Shown here: positions 8,988 to 30,426 of the stretch, one piece after another
Layout of the letters: every line of letters begins with the position of its first letter
Position numbering within the stretch: the stretch's first letter is position 1
NCBI GenBank assembly: GCA_018812625.1
Contig: JAHJDH010000015.1
Span: forward strand, 1-39,839
DNA length: 39,839 nucleotides
From: Microcaldota archaeon
GTDB taxonomy: Archaea > Micrarchaeota > Micrarchaeia > Anstonellales > Bilamarchaeaceae
Reading direction: 5' to 3'
Notes under the pieces: generated by a model
The model's input: the letters and a program-made list of their open reading frames with translations, nothing else
Told to the model about the DNA's origin: nothing
Databases searched by the model: none
Position numbers and translations under genes: made by a program

Positions 8988-9660
8988 CAACTGTTCCGTT
9001 GTGCTTTTTTCCTTCAATTGCATTTTCTATTTCTTTTTCACTCTTGCCAGAAACAAAGTGAGCTTCCATTTTTGACCGGGCTATTAGTTTGCATGCAAGA
9101 AGATCAAATACAAAATGAGTTCCAGCCTTTCTCTTATCGCTGCTAGTAGCTAAGCTAATTAGCTGCTCATAGCTCATCTTTGAGTATCTTTTAGCGGATT
9201 TGTTTACTCTTGGATCACTATCATAAATAGCATCAACATTGCTTATATTGACTAATCTCGTTGCTCCAATTGCCTCTCCAAGAAGAACTGCATCTGTATC
9301 AGTTGTAATTCCGGGAATTGTTCCTCCCATTACAACTACTTTATTCAAAAGTCCGCGAGCCTCTTCAAAATCATTAATCAGCTTTGGATAAACATCAATT
9401 CCTGCATTTCGAAGGGCTGCAATAACTAGCTGTGCATTTTGTTTTGTTGAAGTGATTGCAATAGAATCTGCTTCATATTCACTAGCTCCAAGAGCTCTTG
9501 CTGCTTTGGCATAAACTCTTGCAATTGAACCGCCACCTGTCAATATTCCGAATTTGTTTTTGCTTTTTTTAATCAATTTTGCAAGTGAGGTTAAAAATCC
9601 AAGATCTGGCTCGCCTTTTGGGTTAATCGAGCTTCCACCAACTGAAAGTACAACATGCAT
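8980..9660 (-). CDS. pyrH: Archaeal-type UMP kinase
   Basis: A 226-residue amino acid kinase-fold enzyme that phosphorylates UMP to UDP with ATP. The short archaeal N-terminus reads MHVVLSVGGSSINP, the nucleotide-binding GILTGGGSIAR is followed by the family helix, and later motifs are VMGGTIPGITTDTDAVLLGE and VNISNVDAIYDSDPR. Length and motifs match archaeal PyrH rather than the longer bacterial form. The ATG at 9658-9660 is about 27 bp from an ATTATAAAAC box on the minus strand, so it is likely leaderless. The gene ends tail-to-tail with psmA. Confidence 0.96.
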   Translation of the reverse strand: MHVVLSVGGSSINPKGEPDLGFLTSLAKLIKKSKNKFGILTGGGSIARVYAKAARALGASEYEADSIAITSTKQNAQLVIAALRNAGIDVYPKLINDFEEARGLLNKVVVMGGTIPGITTDTDAVLLGEAIGATRLVNISNVDAIYDSDPRVNKSAKRYSKMSYEQLISLATSSDKRKAGTHFVFDLLACKLIARSKMEAHFVSGKSEKEIENAIEGKKHNGTVVI

Positions 9661-9787
9661 GAGTATCTCTCTATAATTAGTTTTATAATTATGGAGGCCA
9701 AGAGAATCTGCAACTTTAATGATATTTCGTTAAATACTGAAACAACTCTCTGTTTTAATTTTATCCTATTATCCTATGCAACAATAA

Positions 9788-9801
9788 ATTTCCTAGGAAA
9801 T
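9788..9801. repeat. 14-bp perfect palindrome upstream of tnpB
   Basis: ATTTCCTAGGAAAT is a perfect inverted repeat 49 bp before the tnpB start, in a stretch between the UMP kinase promoter and the transposon gene. It could be an operator, or part of the left end of the element. Neither role is shown by the sequence alone. Confidence 0.4.
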
Positions 9802-9849
9802 AAGGCGTGGTTGTTCATCTTTTTAAGGAAAAAAAGTCTAATTCTTTCA

Positions 9850-10977
9850 ATGATAAGAACAATCCAACTACGTCTTCCAAAAAATGATTCTTTGCTAAAG
9901 ACTCTCAGAATAAATGCTCAAATCTATCAACAAATTGTAAATGCCGGTTATCAGAATAAAACATTCAACAAAAACAAACTACACAGACTTACCTACAAGA
10001 AAATTAGAAAGAAATACTCTAACTTCCCTTCAGCGTTAATCCAATCTGTAAGGGATGTTGCTTCAGAAGCACTGAAGCAGACTAAATTAAAAAAGAAAAT
10101 TAAATCCAGGCCTAATTCTGCTCTACGGTGTGATAAAAGAACGATACGAATTAATCTTAAAGACAATATTGCGACAATGTCCTCAGTATCCGGAAGACAG
10201 AAGCTATACTTTCAGCAAAACAGACAATCCCTCAAATACTCAGATTGGAAACCTATTGCAGCTACTTTATCCTACAAAAAAGGAAATCTTTTCCTTAATA
10301 TTGCTGTTGAAAGGGAAACACCCCCAAAAATCATTGCAAATGATTATGAAATTTTAGGTATAGACAGGGGCATAAAAAATATTCTTGTCTCTTCAAACAA
10401 TCAGTTTTTCAATTCAAAACATTTTAGGAAGGTAAAATGCAAATATCAATATCTAAGAAAGATGTTGCAGTCTAAAGGCACGGCTTCTGCAAGAAGAAAA
10501 CTGAAGAAGATAAGCGGAAGAGAACGTCGGTTTGTGACTGATACAAATCACATACTTAGCAAAATAATTGCTGAGAGTGATTTCAAAGTATTTGCTCTTG
10601 AGAATCTTTCTAAGATAAGAAGACCAAAAAAAGAGATTTGTTTAGGAAAAAAATTCAATAGAAAAATTGGCAATTGGTCTTTTGGTCAGTTTGAGGTCTT
10701 TTTGAAATACAAAACAGAGGTATTAGGTAAGCATGTCTGTCTAGTAAATCCAAGAAACACAAGTAGAAAGTGTTCTGGATGTGGGCATACTGAAACAAAA
10801 AACAGGCATGGCAGTAGTTTTAAATGCAGAAAATGCCTTTTCGAGCTGCATGCAGATTTAAATGCTTCTCGTAACATTGCCATACTTGGTATAACTGAAT
10901 ATGGCAGGCTGTCAGTCAACCCGCCGAATGTAACTGTAGAACTACCAGTTACAAGCCTATCTTTTCAATGTAGGTAG
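9850..10977 (+). CDS. tnpB: TnpB RNA-guided endonuclease (IS605 OrfB family)
   Basis: A 375-residue TnpB with its full set of catalytic residues. RuvC-I is GIDRGIKN (Asp172), RuvC-II is ALENLSKI (Glu251) and RuvC-III is HADLNASRNI (Asp336). Between them is a zinc ribbon of two CxxC pairs (Cys308/311 in CSGCG, Cys326/329 in CRKC). TnpB proteins are RNA-guided DNA nucleases that help single-strand-type insertion sequences persist. The N-terminus MIRTIQLRLPKN is the usual family start. The frame remains open upstream to 9655, but that extension is not TnpB-like. Nothing suggests decay. The lysine-rich composition is typical of the family. Confidence 0.93.
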   Translation: MIRTIQLRLPKNDSLLKTLRINAQIYQQIVNAGYQNKTFNKNKLHRLTYKKIRKKYSNFPSALIQSVRDVASEALKQTKLKKKIKSRPNSALRCDKRTIRINLKDNIATMSSVSGRQKLYFQQNRQSLKYSDWKPIAATLSYKKGNLFLNIAVERETPPKIIANDYEILGIDRGIKNILVSSNNQFFNSKHFRKVKCKYQYLRKMLQSKGTASARRKLKKISGRERRFVTDTNHILSKIIAESDFKVFALENLSKIRRPKKEICLGKKFNRKIGNWSFGQFEVFLKYKTEVLGKHVCLVNPRNTSRKCSGCGHTETKNRHGSSFKCRKCLFELHADLNASRNIAILGITEYGRLSVNPPNVTVELPVTSLSFQCR

Positions 10978-11060: not shown

Positions 11061-12539
11061 ATGGTTCAACAATTCATACGGACACTTCGTACACTACAGG
11101 TGGATTTCAAGCCCGAAGCAGCTTCAATGTGGCTTGATCCTTTCCAAAGGGAACAAATAACTGCTGATTCTTTTGAAAAAGTACTTTTTGATCTTGTTGA
11201 ACTCAAAAGATGCACTTCCTCAGGCGCCACTGTTCCACTGACCACAAGTTCATTTTCAATTTTATTTGAGAAAATACTCGAATCAGAACAACCTGGTGCA
11301 AATATCTGCAGTGCAATTATGCAAATCATAAGGCAAGATCGCGATCCACGATTTAATGGCGAGTCTAATCCTGCTAAAGCACTTCTGCTATGCAAGATGC
11401 TCGAGCATATCGCCTTAATCGGAGATTCAGAGATTCTTGATTATCAATCTTCAGTAAATGCTCATTATGCCGTGACAGAATTATCAAGGCCCCTTACTCC
11501 TGCATGGAATGCTATTGAGTACCTCCAATTTTCTGATTCTGTACGGCCAATTGCCATTAATTGTCTCTTGCGTGTTCAAACCAATACTTCTGGAGCAATT
11601 TTCAAGCTTGCCACAGAACACCTCATTGAGTCTTTTCTTAATCTGCGCTCTCCCCATCGATCTGCAAATGTCTATTCTCATATGTGGGATCTTGGAGAAG
11701 TTGGAAGCGTTCCACTGGCTCTTTCAGTTCCTCCTGCAGGCCATATTACCGAAGAAACATTCGAGTTAAACTCCAGACTTCTTCAAGTTTCTCCAAACAG
11801 CCTATATGCCAATCTTGCTTTGCTTTTGGATGTTTCCCATCTTTCTCTTCCTCATGCATGGGCTATTGCAGGTCCGGATGGAACGGCAATCCCGCGTCTT
11901 CATCCAAGCGGAATCCAAGCCGCATGTTTCGCTCTTTTAGGCCAGATAAACAATCCTGTTTCTCTTGGTATTCTCACTCGCGGAATGCTCAATCTTATTA
12001 TCCCTCATATTGGAGCAGGAGTTACTGCTACTCGAAATATCGGCCGTGTTCTTCCTCAGGTTGCAGAGTCTTTTGAATCTGTTGCACTATCCTGTCAGGT
12101 TCCTGGAAAAGAATTAACGCGTATTCTTCTGTCTCATCCAAAACCAATGCGCTTATCTGAATTTGTTCGTCATGGGAAATTTGATGCTCTTCTTCCATTT
12201 GTGCTTGGGGCATTTATACAAACATCTCAGCTAGTAGGCATGCCCCCAAGAAGTTGCGAAAATTTATTTTCCCTTGGATATGGATCAGTTATGGAGCTTT
12301 GGAAAAGATCCGGGGAAGGTATGCCGTTGCCAGCACGGCTTGAAAATTTTGATATTTATCTTCAAATCTTAAACGAAACTCAGCCAAAAGGACTTGTGCA
12401 AGCTCGTGATATTGCAGGTCTTCCTGATATTGGAAAAATAAAACAAGACATGCATGATATGGCGCGCAATTCACTACTCAATAGATCAAATCAACTTAGA
12501 ATAGAAAAACAAGTAGCTCGGCGCCTTCAGTTGCGATAG
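11061..12539 (+). CDS. Uncharacterised 492-residue protein
   Basis: A long intact reading frame I do not recognise. It looks soluble and largely helical, with many short leucine-rich helices. No membrane segment, signal peptide, Walker motif, cysteine cluster or catalytic triad stands out. Proline-containing repeats such as LSVPPAGHITEETF and RPLTPAWNAIEYL occur mid-protein. An AGGTGA motif lies 6 nt before the ATG, and TTTAAAA at 11013-11020 may be its TATA box, so the start is well supported. It lies directly downstream of the TnpB element and 31 bp before the translin-family gene. It could be lineage-specific or transferred, but nothing visible decides this. Confidence 0.7.
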   Translation: MVQQFIRTLRTLQVDFKPEAASMWLDPFQREQITADSFEKVLFDLVELKRCTSSGATVPLTTSSFSILFEKILESEQPGANICSAIMQIIRQDRDPRFNGESNPAKALLLCKMLEHIALIGDSEILDYQSSVNAHYAVTELSRPLTPAWNAIEYLQFSDSVRPIAINCLLRVQTNTSGAIFKLATEHLIESFLNLRSPHRSANVYSHMWDLGEVGSVPLALSVPPAGHITEETFELNSRLLQVSPNSLYANLALLLDVSHLSLPHAWAIAGPDGTAIPRLHPSGIQAACFALLGQINNPVSLGILTRGMLNLIIPHIGAGVTATRNIGRVLPQVAESFESVALSCQVPGKELTRILLSHPKPMRLSEFVRHGKFDALLPFVLGAFIQTSQLVGMPPRSCENLFSLGYGSVMELWKRSGEGMPLPARLENFDIYLQILNETQPKGLVQARDIAGLPDIGKIKQDMHDMARNSLLNRSNQLRIEKQVARRLQLR

Positions 12540-14389: not shown

Positions 14390-15679
14390 TCAAAGATGCA
14401 TCTCTATCAATGTTTTTATTTCTCCCTTTCTCTTCTCTAATTTTTCCTTTGTTTTGTATTCCATAGTGAGCCTGACAACTGGTTCTGTTCCAGAGGCTCT
14501 AACAAGAAGCCATCCATCCGCTTCATCAATCCGAACCCCATCATCATCCCGGACTTTTCCATCAATATTCAGTGATTTTTTCACTTTTTCAACTGTATTA
14601 TGTTTTTCCTTTGCCTGGAATTTCTCTCTTGCAATGAAGTTTTCCTTATATTTTTTTCTCAGTTCTGAGAACTTTCCCTTTTCGCAGAAAATCTCAACAA
14701 ACTTTGCAACTGCAAGTGGTGCATCTGGAACATGGACCCCGCCACTGTAAATATATTCTCCGCAAGGCTCTCCCCCAAAGAGTGCATTATTTTTCTCAAT
14801 ACTATCTCCTACATAAGTACTTCCAACCGGAGTAATTTCAATTTTCCCGCCATTCTTTTCCACAACTTCGCGAATTGCAAGAGAAGCTTCCACAGTAGAA
14901 ACAATTCTTTTGTTCGAACTGCGCTCAAGCTCGTGCTCAATCATCATAGCAAGTTGTACATCAAATGGCAGCATTGATCCTTTTTCATCAATAATTACAC
15001 ATCGATCTCCATCTCCATCATGACCAATTCCAAAATCTGCTCCAGTTTCTCGGACGATATCAAGAAGGTGTGCAAGATTTGTTTCATTTGGCTCTGATGG
15101 CCTGTTAAAGCATTCAAGAGAAGAATTGACACTTACCACCTTGCATCCAAGTTCTGAAAGCAAATAGGGTGTAATGACTGCAGCAGCCCCATTGCAGTCT
15201 GCAATTATCTTGGGTTTTTTCTTTTCGATTAATTTCCGATCAACCATTCCAAGAATCATTTGTTTATGCTCTTCTATAACTTCGCTATTATGTGAAAAAT
15301 CTCCTATATCTGACCTGATAATTGGCTTATTATATTCTTCAATAACCTCTTGTTCCAGCTTTTTTCCGATTTCTTTTGCATTTTCAACCAGTTTAAGGCC
15401 ATTATATTCAGGAGGGTTGTGAGAAGCAGTGACCATGATTCCCCTGCCGGCTCTTGCAGCATATGCCAAGGTAGGAGTTGGTGCTATTCCAATATCTATT
15501 ACATCAGAACCTGCAGCAAGAGCACCTGCTGAAACTGCGATTGATAGTGTGACCCCACTTTGTCTCAAGTCTCTGGCAACAAATAGATTATCTTTTGAGA
15601 AAACATTACCGATTTTGAGCGCTAGCTCTTCTGTAATATCCTTTCCGTAGATGCCTCTGATGCCAGAAGTTCCAAACAT
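14390..15679 (-). CDS. Phosphoglucosamine/phosphomannomutase family enzyme
   Basis: A 429-residue alpha-D-phosphohexomutase with all four active-site loops: TASHNPPEYNG with the phosphorylated Ser86, the metal-binding DGDGDR (221-226), the sugar-binding GGEPCGEYIY, and the phosphate-binding RASGTEP near the C-terminus. These enzymes interconvert hexose 1- and 6-phosphates (glucosamine, mannose or glucose) and feed nucleotide-sugar synthesis. The archaeal subgroup includes enzymes with mixed specificity, so I give no symbol. The ATG at 15677-15679 lies 27 bp from an AAATAAATA box on the minus strand at about 15706, so it is likely leaderless. It is divergent from the glutamine-synthetase-like gene and probably linked to the surface glycan genes in function. 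Confidence 0.93.
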   Translation of the reverse strand: MFGTSGIRGIYGKDITEELALKIGNVFSKDNLFVARDLRQSGVTLSIAVSAGALAAGSDVIDIGIAPTPTLAYAARAGRGIMVTASHNPPEYNGLKLVENAKEIGKKLEQEVIEEYNKPIIRSDIGDFSHNSEVIEEHKQMILGMVDRKLIEKKKPKIIADCNGAAAVITPYLLSELGCKVVSVNSSLECFNRPSEPNETNLAHLLDIVRETGADFGIGHDGDGDRCVIIDEKGSMLPFDVQLAMMIEHELERSSNKRIVSTVEASLAIREVVEKNGGKIEITPVGSTYVGDSIEKNNALFGGEPCGEYIYSGGVHVPDAPLAVAKFVEIFCEKGKFSELRKKYKENFIAREKFQAKEKHNTVEKVKKSLNIDGKVRDDDGVRIDEADGWLLVRASGTEPVVRLTMEYKTKEKLEKRKGEIKTLIEMHL

Positions 15680-15710
15680 ATGGATAGAACTGTCTTCGAA
15701 ACGTATTTAT

Positions 15711-15722: not shown

Positions 15723-15742
15723 CTAAGAATACAGGTGGTTTT

Positions 15743-17113
15743 TTGTCTGCTATAGATGACGTAATGAAATATATTGCCACAAACGAAGTAAGGTGGATTG
15801 ATTTACAGTTTTTTGATGTTAAAGGTAAGATGCATCGCATTACTGTTTCTAATAGAAAACTTGGCGAAGCAAGCTTTGGAAATGGAATTTATGCAGCTGA
15901 ACTCAGTGAAGTATTTGGCAAAAATGAACAGGGGGAGCTTATTCTACTTCCAGATCCTGACACTTTAGCTAGAATCCCATGGGAACCAGCATCAGTCAGG
16001 CTTATCTGCGATGTTGTTGTTGCACTCAAAAAAGAGAGATACTTGAAAGATCCAAGATATGTTGCTGAGAGGATGGAAACGAATCTTAGCGCTGCTGGAA
16101 TCAAGAATTCACTTATAGGTACTGAAGTGAGCTGTTATCTTTTGGATACGGCAACAGCAGACAAGAAAAACAGAGCACGTGGTGTAGGTGTTTTGATGGA
16201 TTCTCGGGAAGCAACCTGGGGACCTTCTCCACTGTCAAATGATGGTAGTGGTGCGTTTGTTGCAACTCCTCATGATTCAATGTATTCTGCAAGAAATCAG
16301 ATCTGTGAAACAATGGAAGATAATTTTGGTATGCTCATTGATTCTCACAGGCATGGTTCTTCGCCAACAGCACAGCAGACATTTGAGCTCTCACCAAGAG
16401 GCCTTAAGACAGCTGGAGATGCAGTAAATACATTAAAGTTCATCACAAAGAATCTTGCAACTGCAGTCAATGCAGCTGCAACTTTTATGCCATATCCAAT
16501 TGAAGGCGAGGCTGGAAACGGAATGGATGTATCTGTGAGTCTTTGGAAAACCAGTGAAAACAATATCTTTTACGATGGCAAAGAGTCATATGGACAGCTG
16601 AGCCAGACTGGAAGGTACTTCATCGGTGGTCTTCTTGAGCATGCTGGTGCAGTTTCATTGTTTACTGCCCCAACTCCAAACTCATACAAGAGACTTTCAA
16701 TGAAGAACTTTGCAGTTGGATGGAGCGTTACTGATTCCAATGCCCTTGTTCGTGTGCCTCATACCAAGAAAAATGTTAAAGAGGTTAAAAGAATCACATA
16801 TCAGGGAGCAGATCCATCAGCAAATCCCTACCTTGCAAATGCAATAGTATGTGCAGCTGGTCTTGATGGTATAAAGAACAAGATTGATCCTGGAGACCCT
16901 GTAGAAACTGATAGTAAGAAGAAGAGGGTTGAAAAAGATCTTCCAGACAGCCTATATGAGGCAATTGCAGAGCTTGAGAGCGACACCAAGTTCCTCAAAG
17001 GTGTTGTTCCATCAGAACTTCTTGGAGACTATCTTGATACCAAACTTAGACAGCACAAAGAATCTCTTCGTGGAATCAGCGGTCTTGAGCTTCAGAAGTA
17101 CTTTAATGTCTAA
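15743..17113 (+). CDS. Glutamine-synthetase-fold protein, probably catalytically degenerate
   Basis: A 456-residue homologue of type I glutamine synthetase over its whole length: VRWIDLQFFDVKG near the start, ATFMPYPIEGEAGNGM, PTPNSYKRL, ADPSANPYL and the LPDSLYEAI C-terminal helix. By eye the catalytic residues are mostly gone. The DGSS loop reads AAEL. The paired metal glutamates G-x-E-x-E read GTEVS. The HHE...GQxE segment reads RHGSSPTAQQT. M-H-x-H reads MDVS (Asp262). R-I-E reads RIT (Thr352), and the flap glutamate is missing. It may be a regulator or have a different activity. TTG at 15743 is chosen from the TATA box, GGTGGT 3 nt upstream, and the usual 19 residues before WIDLQF. ATG at 15764 or 15680 are alternatives. 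Confidence 0.85.
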   Translation: MSAIDDVMKYIATNEVRWIDLQFFDVKGKMHRITVSNRKLGEASFGNGIYAAELSEVFGKNEQGELILLPDPDTLARIPWEPASVRLICDVVVALKKERYLKDPRYVAERMETNLSAAGIKNSLIGTEVSCYLLDTATADKKNRARGVGVLMDSREATWGPSPLSNDGSGAFVATPHDSMYSARNQICETMEDNFGMLIDSHRHGSSPTAQQTFELSPRGLKTAGDAVNTLKFITKNLATAVNAAATFMPYPIEGEAGNGMDVSVSLWKTSENNIFYDGKESYGQLSQTGRYFIGGLLEHAGAVSLFTAPTPNSYKRLSMKNFAVGWSVTDSNALVRVPHTKKNVKEVKRITYQGADPSANPYLANAIVCAAGLDGIKNKIDPGDPVETDSKKKRVEKDLPDSLYEAIAELESDTKFLKGVVPSELLGDYLDTKLRQHKESLRGISGLELQKYFNV

Positions 17114-17140
17114 TTTTTTCTTTTCCTTTTATTTTTAAAA

Positions 17141-17152
17141 CCTGTACGTCCA
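17141..17152 (+). promoter_or_regulatory. TATA box of tRNA-Val
   Basis: ATTTTTAAAACC is centred about 23 bp before the first base of tRNA-Val at 17169, a usual archaeal promoter position for a tRNA gene. Confidence 0.5.
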
Positions 17153-17168
17153 AAGAACAACTTTACTT

Positions 17169-17287
17169 GGGCTCGTAGTCGAGAGCCTTGAACGGCATTC
17201 TGTTCAAGAATTGCCAGCAAGGCTGACAATGGTTAAGATGTTCGCCTTACACGCGAAAGATCCCCAGTTCGATCCTGGGCGAGCCCA
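17169..17287 (+). tRNA. tRNA-Val (anticodon TAC) with a 46-nt intron in the D-loop
   Basis: The acceptor stem GGGCTCG (17169-17175) pairs with CGAGCCC ending at 17286, with discriminator A at 17287 and no encoded CCA. The anticodon arm is TTCGC-CTTACAC-GCGAA with TAC at 17248-17250. The T-arm is CCCAG-TTCGATC-CTGGG. The D-arm is interrupted. A strict bulge-helix-bulge can be drawn: central helix GTCG/TGAC, bulges AG|A and AA|T, then inner helix GCCTTG/CAAGGC. Cutting there removes 17184-17229 and joins ...GTCGAG to TGGTTAAGAT. This restores A14, G15, G18G19 and A21. The mature RNA is 73 nt. The intron would lie between positions 15 and 16, a noncanonical site. Confidence 0.93.
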
Positions 17288-17381
17288 TATTTTTATTAAC
17301 ATCATCAGTTTCTGGTTTTTTGTTTTGAAAAACATGTTTGAGGATCTAAATCTCCTAATTATTTTGAACAATTCTCACAAG

Positions 17382-17400
17382 TACTACTAACTACTAATTT
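17382..17400 (+). repeat. Direct repeat copy 1, TACTACTAACTACTAATTT
   Basis: This 19-bp sequence recurs exactly at 17460-17478, 78 bp downstream. It is itself built of two ACTACTA units. Two copies do not make a CRISPR array, and no repeat-spacer periodicity continues. Confidence 0.85.
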
Positions 17401-17459
17401 GGGTGTGTTTATTAGTATTTAGTGCTTTTTTTCTAATTATATCGACGATAAAGTCCATA

Positions 17460-17478
17460 TACTACTAACTACTAATTT
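17460..17478 (+). repeat. Direct repeat copy 2, TACTACTAACTACTAATTT
   Basis: Exact second copy of the repeat at 17382-17400, followed like the first by T residues. A shorter inverted relative lies about 20 bp further on. The role is unknown. Protein-binding sites or element ends are possible. Confidence 0.85.
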
Positions 17479-17584
17479 TTTATAGCTTTACTAGTAGTTG
17501 TGCTAAATTAGTCTAAATCTACTAGAAATATACTATACAAAACTGTTCTGAATACTAACAAGAAAACTTAAACTCTGGGAAAGT

Positions 17585-28851: not shown

Positions 28852-30426
28852 TTATTGCAGCATATCCTTTGGTTTCATCCCAGTATCTTCAAGAAGTTTT
28901 TTTATTCTAAGTTGCCATGGAACTTCCAATCCAGAATAACAATATTCGTGCAGTATTCGTGCCGTATCATTGTGCATCATTGTTCCTTCTCCAACTGCTG
29001 CAAGACTGCTCATAACTGCACTTACAACACCATAGCCAAGTGCATATTCTATTCTTGCTCCTGGCTGCAATACAAGTCGCTCGTCCGAAGCCCAAGCACC
29101 TGCTAAAGTTTCATCAGGAATTCCAGGAACTCTTCCTGAGATTGAGTGCTGCTCTACTAATTTCAGATATATTTTGTCTATTGCTCCTTCTGGATTTCTA
29201 TATAGTTCCATCTCCAGCAGTCCTCCAACAACAAATTCTCTCATTCGCGTTGCATCAAGGAATCTGGACATTAAAACTACATTATCCAGTTCAGCTTCTT
29301 GCGCGCCACTCATCTCATGAAGTACATATGGGTCTGCAAGAAGTGTTTCTACTACCATTGCCATTCCCTCTCTAAAGGCTTCAGTATCTGTTTTGAAGAA
29401 GTCTGGGCCATTGTTCCTATCAAGTCCATCATAATGAAGGACATGGCCTCCTTCATGGAAAACTGCTGCTGTAAATGCTCTTGGATTGCTGCTATTAAAA
29501 GGATTTACAAGTGCCAGGTATTCTGGGTTTCCTTTTGCAAGTCGCAGTGCTCCTTCTCCAAGTTCATTTGCAGGATCTGCACTTACTTCCAGAACATGCG
29601 GGCTGTTTCCAAAATTGGTTACATCGAAATATTTACTAAAACCGGAAAGATATAGGACATGTTTGAAAAGCGAAAGTGACATATCTCCGCTTGGGAAAAC
29701 ATTCCAAAATTCCATTCTGCTGTAAAATTGATTAACTGCAAGAATGTCATTTAGCGGATTGATTTCTGGTATTCCAAACGCTTCCTTGATATTATCTAAA
29801 AATCCTCGAATATTTGAAGTTGAATATAGCAGCCCTTCAAATCTTGATTTTGCTATAACATCAACCATATCATTTCGAAGCATAATCACTTCTGCAAAAG
29901 ATTTGACATCAAGCCCAAGTTCTGCTCCATATTCTCTTGATTTTTGGTTAATCAATCTAACAAGATCAAGAACTTTTCCTCGAAGCCGTGTTGACTGCTC
30001 CAAATACTCCAGATATATTGCCTTGGATACTGGTCCATATTCTGTTTGCCATCTTGAAACTATCTCTTCCTTTGTCATCTCCACTCCGGCAAATTCATAT
30101 CTAAATGCAGCAAATTCCTTTGCAGTCTGTTCTTTTGCCTCATTAACTTCAGGGTCTCGCATAACTGCATTGTAAAGAGCTTCACTGAGGCGAAGTTCAA
30201 TTTCTCTTTTTTCTTTTGGGTCTGCACTTTGCATGGCTGATTTTAATGTTTTATAATAGTCTTCTGATCTTTGAAGTGCTGCAAGCTCTTCGCTTACTTT
30301 TTTCAAATCTGCATCTCCAGGTCCTTGCCCATGCCAATTCCCCCAGATCATTTTTCCCCTACTAGTAGTAAGTTCTGCTTCTTTTCTGTCAAATCTCTCG
30401 AGTTTTTTCCTAGTTAATCTATCCAT
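28852..30426 (-). CDS. Zinc metallopeptidase-like protein (gluzincin, M3/M32-like)
   Basis: A 524-residue, helix-rich soluble protein. The zinc signature FHEGGHVLH (His324, Glu325, His328) is followed by an acidic segment, TEAFREGMAMVVE, that supplies the probable third ligand (Glu349 or Glu353). The HEGGH form and the long helical N-terminus resemble oligopeptidases of the M3 and M32 type, but the match is loose and I could not place it in one family. It has no signal peptide, so it is probably cytoplasmic. The GAGGC motif 8 nt before the ATG resembles the one before the methionine aminopeptidase gene. Confidence 0.75.
   Translation of the reverse strand: MDRLTRKKLERFDRKEAELTTSRGKMIWGNWHGQGPGDADLKKVSEELAALQRSEDYYKTLKSAMQSADPKEKREIELRLSEALYNAVMRDPEVNEAKEQTAKEFAAFRYEFAGVEMTKEEIVSRWQTEYGPVSKAIYLEYLEQSTRLRGKVLDLVRLINQKSREYGAELGLDVKSFAEVIMLRNDMVDVIAKSRFEGLLYSTSNIRGFLDNIKEAFGIPEINPLNDILAVNQFYSRMEFWNVFPSGDMSLSLFKHVLYLSGFSKYFDVTNFGNSPHVLEVSADPANELGEGALRLAKGNPEYLALVNPFNSSNPRAFTAAVFHEGGHVLHYDGLDRNNGPDFFKTDTEAFREGMAMVVETLLADPYVLHEMSGAQEAELDNVVLMSRFLDATRMREFVVGGLLEMELYRNPEGAIDKIYLKLVEQHSISGRVPGIPDETLAGAWASDERLVLQPGARIEYALGYGVVSAVMSSLAAVGEGTMMHNDTARILHEYCYSGLEVPWQLRIKKLLEDTGMKPKDMLQ

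Follow-up and report, generated by a model that had tools for sequence, protein, structure and literature searches.

The window analyzed here, a stretch of micrarchaeal DNA of 39,839 nucleotides, carries on its forward strand a gene (15743–17113) whose product has the fold of glutamine synthetase (GS) but is neither a GS nor a gamma-glutamyl ligase. It is a selected pseudoenzyme, because the positions that serve as ligand sites in GS evolve fast in it, whereas conservation extends to the motifs of the fold and to the stacking helix at the C-terminus, and dN/dS is low. The protein would be an old paralog of the type I enzyme GlnA that two related families of micrarchaea have kept after loss of the chemistry of GS and of the gamma-glutamyl ligases. 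We consider it probable, though by no means certain, that it performs a non-catalytic job under selection, likely as a scaffold built like the ring of GS.

The gene and the fold of its product

The open frame encodes 456 residues and begins with a TTG codon at 15743, 4 nt upstream of which lies a Shine-Dalgarno-like AGGTGG (15733–15738, forward strand). Homology to the orthologs starts at SAIDDVMKYIATNE, and an in-frame GG-x-L-SAIDD pattern at the Shine-Dalgarno sequence and start is found again in many of them. An alternative ATG start at 15680, directly adjoining the start of a divergent glmM gene, was rejected; its 21 extra codons have no counterpart in the orthologs. A scan for promoters and terminators around the gene yielded consensus matches only, near the level of chance. 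Downstream, positions 17114–17584 form a long gap without an ORF of 80 aa; GTTCGATCCTGGGCGAGC at 17267 looks like the T-arm of a tRNA, and ARAGORN detected no tRNA in the window.

Pfam recognizes a beta-Grasp N-terminal domain (Gln-synt_N, PF03951; 15788–16018, forward strand; 43 bits) and the GS catalytic domain fold (Gln-synt_C, PF00120; 16046–17101, forward strand; 250 bits, E 3.5e-74), which together span the whole protein. The score against the GlnA equivalog model TIGR00653 is 318 bits and thus below the cut-off of 429, and that against NF045547 (GGputSyn) is 198 bits as compared with a cut-off of 650. An AF2 model computed from an alignment of 24 orthologs only (pLDDT 79, pTM 0.83; confidence low at residues 135–175 and at the C-terminus, 444–455) found its best PDB matches by Foldseek in chains of GlnA dodecamers (E 4e-35, TM 0.84). 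Type I glutamine synthetase, GlnA, is represented in the PDB by 2gls, 3ng0 and 9n4x. Pfam, AF2 and Foldseek hence agree that both the N- and C-domain fold of GS is present, as a preliminary description of this DNA had proposed. With type I GlnA the protein shares the full-length two-domain architecture, the overall length, the motifs NSYKR and AGLDGIKNK, and the C-terminal helix; the closest intact relative that we found, at 41% identity, is the GlnA protein of G033, which belongs to a different family in this order.

Loss of the catalytic residues

Residues were assigned, in Salmonella numbering, from an alignment that combined some 115 GS sequences with the GlnA of Salmonella. Only one of the six metal ligands is retained in the window protein. 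Glu129 is present in an E-V-S motif (16124–16132, forward strand, as are all other positions in this paragraph) in which Glu131 is replaced by Ser; Glu212 is replaced by Gly and Glu220 by Thr at the two ends of a stretch (16355–16381) within HRH-G...QQ-T; His269 is replaced by Asp (16511–16528, a segment that begins with the replacement of Asn264, a residue of the phosphate and glutamate sites, by Ala); and Glu357 is replaced by Thr. The last of these lies in a stretch (16736–16804) in which two phosphate- and glutamate-site arginines are lost as well (Arg339 to Ser, Arg359 to Gln), while Arg344 is retained here and variable in relatives. His271 is Ser; Arg321, Gly265 and Ser273 are kept. The ammonia site and the flap are not GS-like either: Tyr179 is Ala, and at the site of the flap (PGYEAP in GS; 16694–16711) a three-residue deletion has removed Glu327. 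All of these metal-ligand replacements and the missing flap glutamate had been read correctly in the preliminary description. Its statement that the DGSS loop, the Asp50 latch, is replaced by AAEL (15893–15904) holds for Gly51, Ser52 and Ser53, which are lost; however, Asp50 is replaced by Glu, and this column is mostly still acidic, with Asp in most orthologs.

With one exception, the losses of metal ligands are not peculiar to the window protein. The change of Glu212 to Gly, the loss of Glu220, His269 and Glu357, and the flap deletion are family-wide, save for His at position 269 in genome G017; the Ser at position 131, in contrast, is specific for the window species, and 40 of the 41 family orthologs carry Asp or Glu there. 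At most two of the six metal ligands are found in any of 51 orthologs, as opposed to six in all 56 canonical GS proteins, and the two ATP arginines, both present in each of the 56, occur together in none of the 51. The positions conserved in GS yet lost in the pseudoenzyme are nearly all in the active site, while every group conserves H211, Q218, NSY (317–319), D380-G381, E461 and Y465. The alignment thus demonstrates, at the level of residues, that the ligand set is dead and that the motifs of the fold and of the C-terminal stacking helix persist.

The gamma-glutamyl ligases (PuuA, 4HPP, Streptomyces GlnA2/3 and Haloferax GlnA-2) are GS paralogs in which D50, E327 and Y179 are also changed. 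In 4HPP, a distant ligase, however, only the ammonia-site residues are lost, and all metal ligands and arginines are retained (PMC6478659). The pseudoenzyme has lost both the metal ligands and the ATP arginines, which at least this member of the gamma-glutamyl ligases keeps.

A metal-dependent ATP ligase requires both the metals and the arginines. Judged by its residues, the pseudoenzyme clade is very unlikely to conduct catalysis by the GS route, because metals and arginines are both lost and no other fixed catalytic set replaces them. It could be argued that misalignment has hidden the ligands of what is a divergent yet active GS or gamma-glutamyl ligase, given that the alignment is full-length and the identity to the intact GS of G033 is 41%. 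We regard this as highly improbable: the alignment of the motifs is unambiguous, there are no Glu or His substitutes nearby, and the same losses recur throughout the clade.

Selection on the protein body and fast evolution of the old pocket

Loss of active-site residues could also signal a gene in decay, but we give this explanation practically no credence. None of the 51 aligned reading frames contains an internal stop, and the gene is retained in strongly reduced genomes of 0.5–0.6 Mb. The closest pairs, to which the dN/dS estimate was confined (dS below 1; older pairs are saturated), yield dN values of 0.05–0.09 and dS values of 0.4–0.8, hence a dN/dS ratio of about 0.07–0.15, well below 1. 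Comparison of these coding sequences demonstrates purifying selection on the gene, in keeping with the earlier suggestion that it is not decaying and is selected for another role.

The ligand positions of the former active site evolve fast. We examined 17 ligand positions, chosen from knowledge of Salmonella GS and not from their rates. Their relative rate is 1.44 in the genus, 1.49 in the family and 1.33 in the second family; in the family they are faster than the background (p = 0.0017), the other positions of the pseudoenzyme averaging 0.95, and in canonical GS the same 17 sites have a relative rate of 0.19. Conversely, N12, R76, E80, N114, A117, R154, Q194 and K431-G432 are slow in the pseudoenzyme and fast in GS; these sites may mark a new contact surface.

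The fast evolution of the pocket could instead mean adaptation to differing ligands. A remodelled pocket might bind a new small molecule, either as a sensor or in a ligase-like reaction that dispenses with the GS metals. Changes of substrate are frequent among GS paralogs, and Haloferax GlnA-2, a glutamate-putrescine ligase, retains only 10 of 18 GS residues (PMC8394153). Moreover, G212, Q219 and G265 are fixed in the family, and Lys or Arg is near-fixed at position 264 (37 of 41 family orthologs). Nevertheless, we consider this explanation unlikely: positions 264, 269, 339, 344, 357 and 359 are fast and variable even inside a single genus, and the arginines for ATP are never both retained, in contrast to 4HPP with its complete set of metal ligands and arginines. 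The new ligase-like activity that had been suggested for the window protein does not, therefore, serve as a general explanation, and the fast ligand sites also disfavor a sensor that uses the old pocket. PII, the usual archaeal partner of GS, turned up in one of the 40 relatives and nowhere in the family of the window, which makes a sensor in the old pocket less likely still and led us to reject regulation by PII.

Retention of the pseudoenzyme independent of canonical GlnA

In the family of the window (f1), 42 of 43 genomes carry the pseudoenzyme gene, as do all 10 genomes of a second family (f8), with partial genes scored as present; in genome G021 it is a fragment at a contig edge, and only G065 lacks it. 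The named contigs carrying orthologs belong mostly to Candidatus Micrarchaeota. Three more families in this order (f5, f7 and f11) yield matches in the canonical range only, and those that were fully read are canonical GS proteins.

The window genome itself also possesses a canonical GlnA with every ligand intact, encoded on contig C4 next to a gene for an Lrp-type regulator (named from its sequence); a second glnA, for which the preliminary description had advised to search, hence exists. Since the two proteins share a fold and 24 further genomes of the family carry both genes (25 of 43 in total, partial genes included), the pseudoenzyme could serve the canonical GlnA of the same cell as a regulator or as a subunit without catalysis, for instance in mixed rings. 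We think this improbable, and even less likely than a new ligand in the old pocket. Canonical GS was not found in any of the 10 f8 genomes or in 18 of the 43 f1 genomes, and 27 of the 52 genomes that bear the pseudoenzyme yielded none; among f1 genera, it was found in none of five g24 genomes and in one of six g8 genomes, and the pseudoenzyme is retained in nearly all of them. Missing data are an unlikely cause of these absences, because at about 84% completeness ten consecutive absences would be extremely unlikely. In addition, the canonical copies fall into two GlnA clades, neither of which is sister to the pseudoenzyme. The idea of a partner of a true GS thus fails as a general explanation, and these gene counts demonstrate that retention of the pseudoenzyme is independent of canonical GlnA.

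Genomic neighborhood

A glmM-like gene (14390–15679, reverse strand) is divergently oriented and starts 63 bp from the start of the pseudoenzyme gene. This divergent pair is kept in most of genus g1 and also in g6 and g7. In genus g8 (L159–L162, L182), the pseudoenzyme gene has pdxS, and pdxT, as divergent neighbors; a thermosome gene is located within a few genes of it in g2, g6, g7, g8 and g24, and thermosome, PCNA, uppS or purP genes are near it in other genera. We therefore rejected a conserved operon as a functional clue; no partner is common across genera, and neighbors that differ between genera indicate no single pathway. Elsewhere, the window contains a gene for a TnpB-type RNA-guided nuclease (9655–10977, forward strand; NCBIfam guided_TnpB, 169 bits) and two ORFs without a Pfam match (11061–12539, 492 aa; 28852–30426, 524 aa).

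Origin of the clade and its apparent intermediates

In trees of 115 and 53 GS sequences, calculated without lengsin, the proteins of f1 and f8 form one clade (support 97–99% overall, 98–99% by SH-aLRT) that branches beside archaeal type I GlnA. Between this clade and canonical GS sit the long-branched G026 as well as G097 and G098, which stem from families of the class other than f1 and f8. A branch supported at 95% separates all degenerate sequences together from the rest, and a narrower degenerate group without G026 was rejected (p-AU 0.03), so that the placement of the single sequences G097, G098 and G026 is not firm. The G097 protein has lost E212, E220 and H269 and retains E129, D131, E357 and the arginines; that of G098 shows the same losses and, in addition, that of the flap. 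They look like stages in the loss of the metal site. Both partly degenerate proteins (L188 and L190, respectively) keep the ATP and glutamate arginines, and each of the two genomes has another GS.

A further unusual GS group was noticed in family f19 of the same class (L207–L210 and L212; G103–G107). It retains all six metal ligands, Arg321 is replaced by Asp or Glu, the Arg339 region is missing and Pro-Met replaces N264-G265; this group probably represents a ligase for a substrate other than glutamate or ammonia.

A proposed ring without catalysis

In GS, the C-terminal helix inserts into the opposite ring (PMC6076278). The conservation in all groups of E461 and Y465 within this helix is a hint that the pseudoenzyme has kept the assembly of GS into rings, probably double ones. 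A contact between Asp/Glu at 129 and 131 and Lys/Arg at 264 may, in most relatives, replace the metals and keep the empty site closed; acids at both positions plus Lys/Arg264 co-occur in 31 of the 41 family members. The window protein, the sole member without an acid at 131, is also devoid of Lys264, a joint loss that, as one event, gives weak evidence for such a salt bridge. The protein body is what stays constrained, and we therefore favor a ring-shaped scaffold or protein-binding platform. It would act through the protein–protein contacts of the assembled ring, for scaffolding, sequestering or regulation, and not through the old pocket.

Function of this kind would resemble moonlighting by GS itself. 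Fusarium GLN1 is an active GS with a regulatory role that is separable from catalysis (PMC3829961), and in the GS–GlnR system of Gram-positive bacteria the body of an active GS provides a regulatory platform (PMC9249791). Unlike the pseudoenzyme, these are active enzymes; common to them is the idea of the GS body as a platform.

Another analogy may be offered by lengsin, a GS-like protein of the vertebrate lens, which reportedly reuses the GS fold without catalysis. In both cases the fold is retained and catalysis is lost, with the gene of the pseudoenzyme being under selection; lengsin, however, belongs to another GS class and lineage, has a tissue-specific role in eukaryotes, and its structure (PDB 2j9i) is matched only weakly by the pseudoenzyme (E 1.4e-5). 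Among the open-licence papers searched for GS pseudoenzymes of archaea or Micrarchaeota, none dealt with this protein, and we found no prokaryotic, family-wide case that is independent of glnA. It is conceivable, at what we judge to be slightly below an even chance, that a catalysis-free GS ring of single origin belongs to the non-enzymatic core equipment of two genome-reduced families of Micrarchaeota, with surviving intermediates in G097 and G098, that it has outlasted GS in several lineages, and that it is a prokaryotic counterpart of the lengsin type.

Few enzymes are as old and as conserved as glutamine synthetase. Our data suggest that in these Micrarchaeota the body of this old enzyme was reused for a non-enzymatic job, because the dead copy is near-universal and is kept in several lineages where the real enzyme is apparently gone; such reuse would have its precedent in lengsin. 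A clade that holds the dead copy more widely than the live one, and whose relatives form a graded series from intact to fully dead GS, presents a clean case for studying roles of GS beyond catalysis. Annotation at the level of the protein family would assign glutamine synthesis to Micrarchaeota that are probably incapable of it by means of this gene, an error that matters for modelling how far DPANN archaea depend on their hosts.
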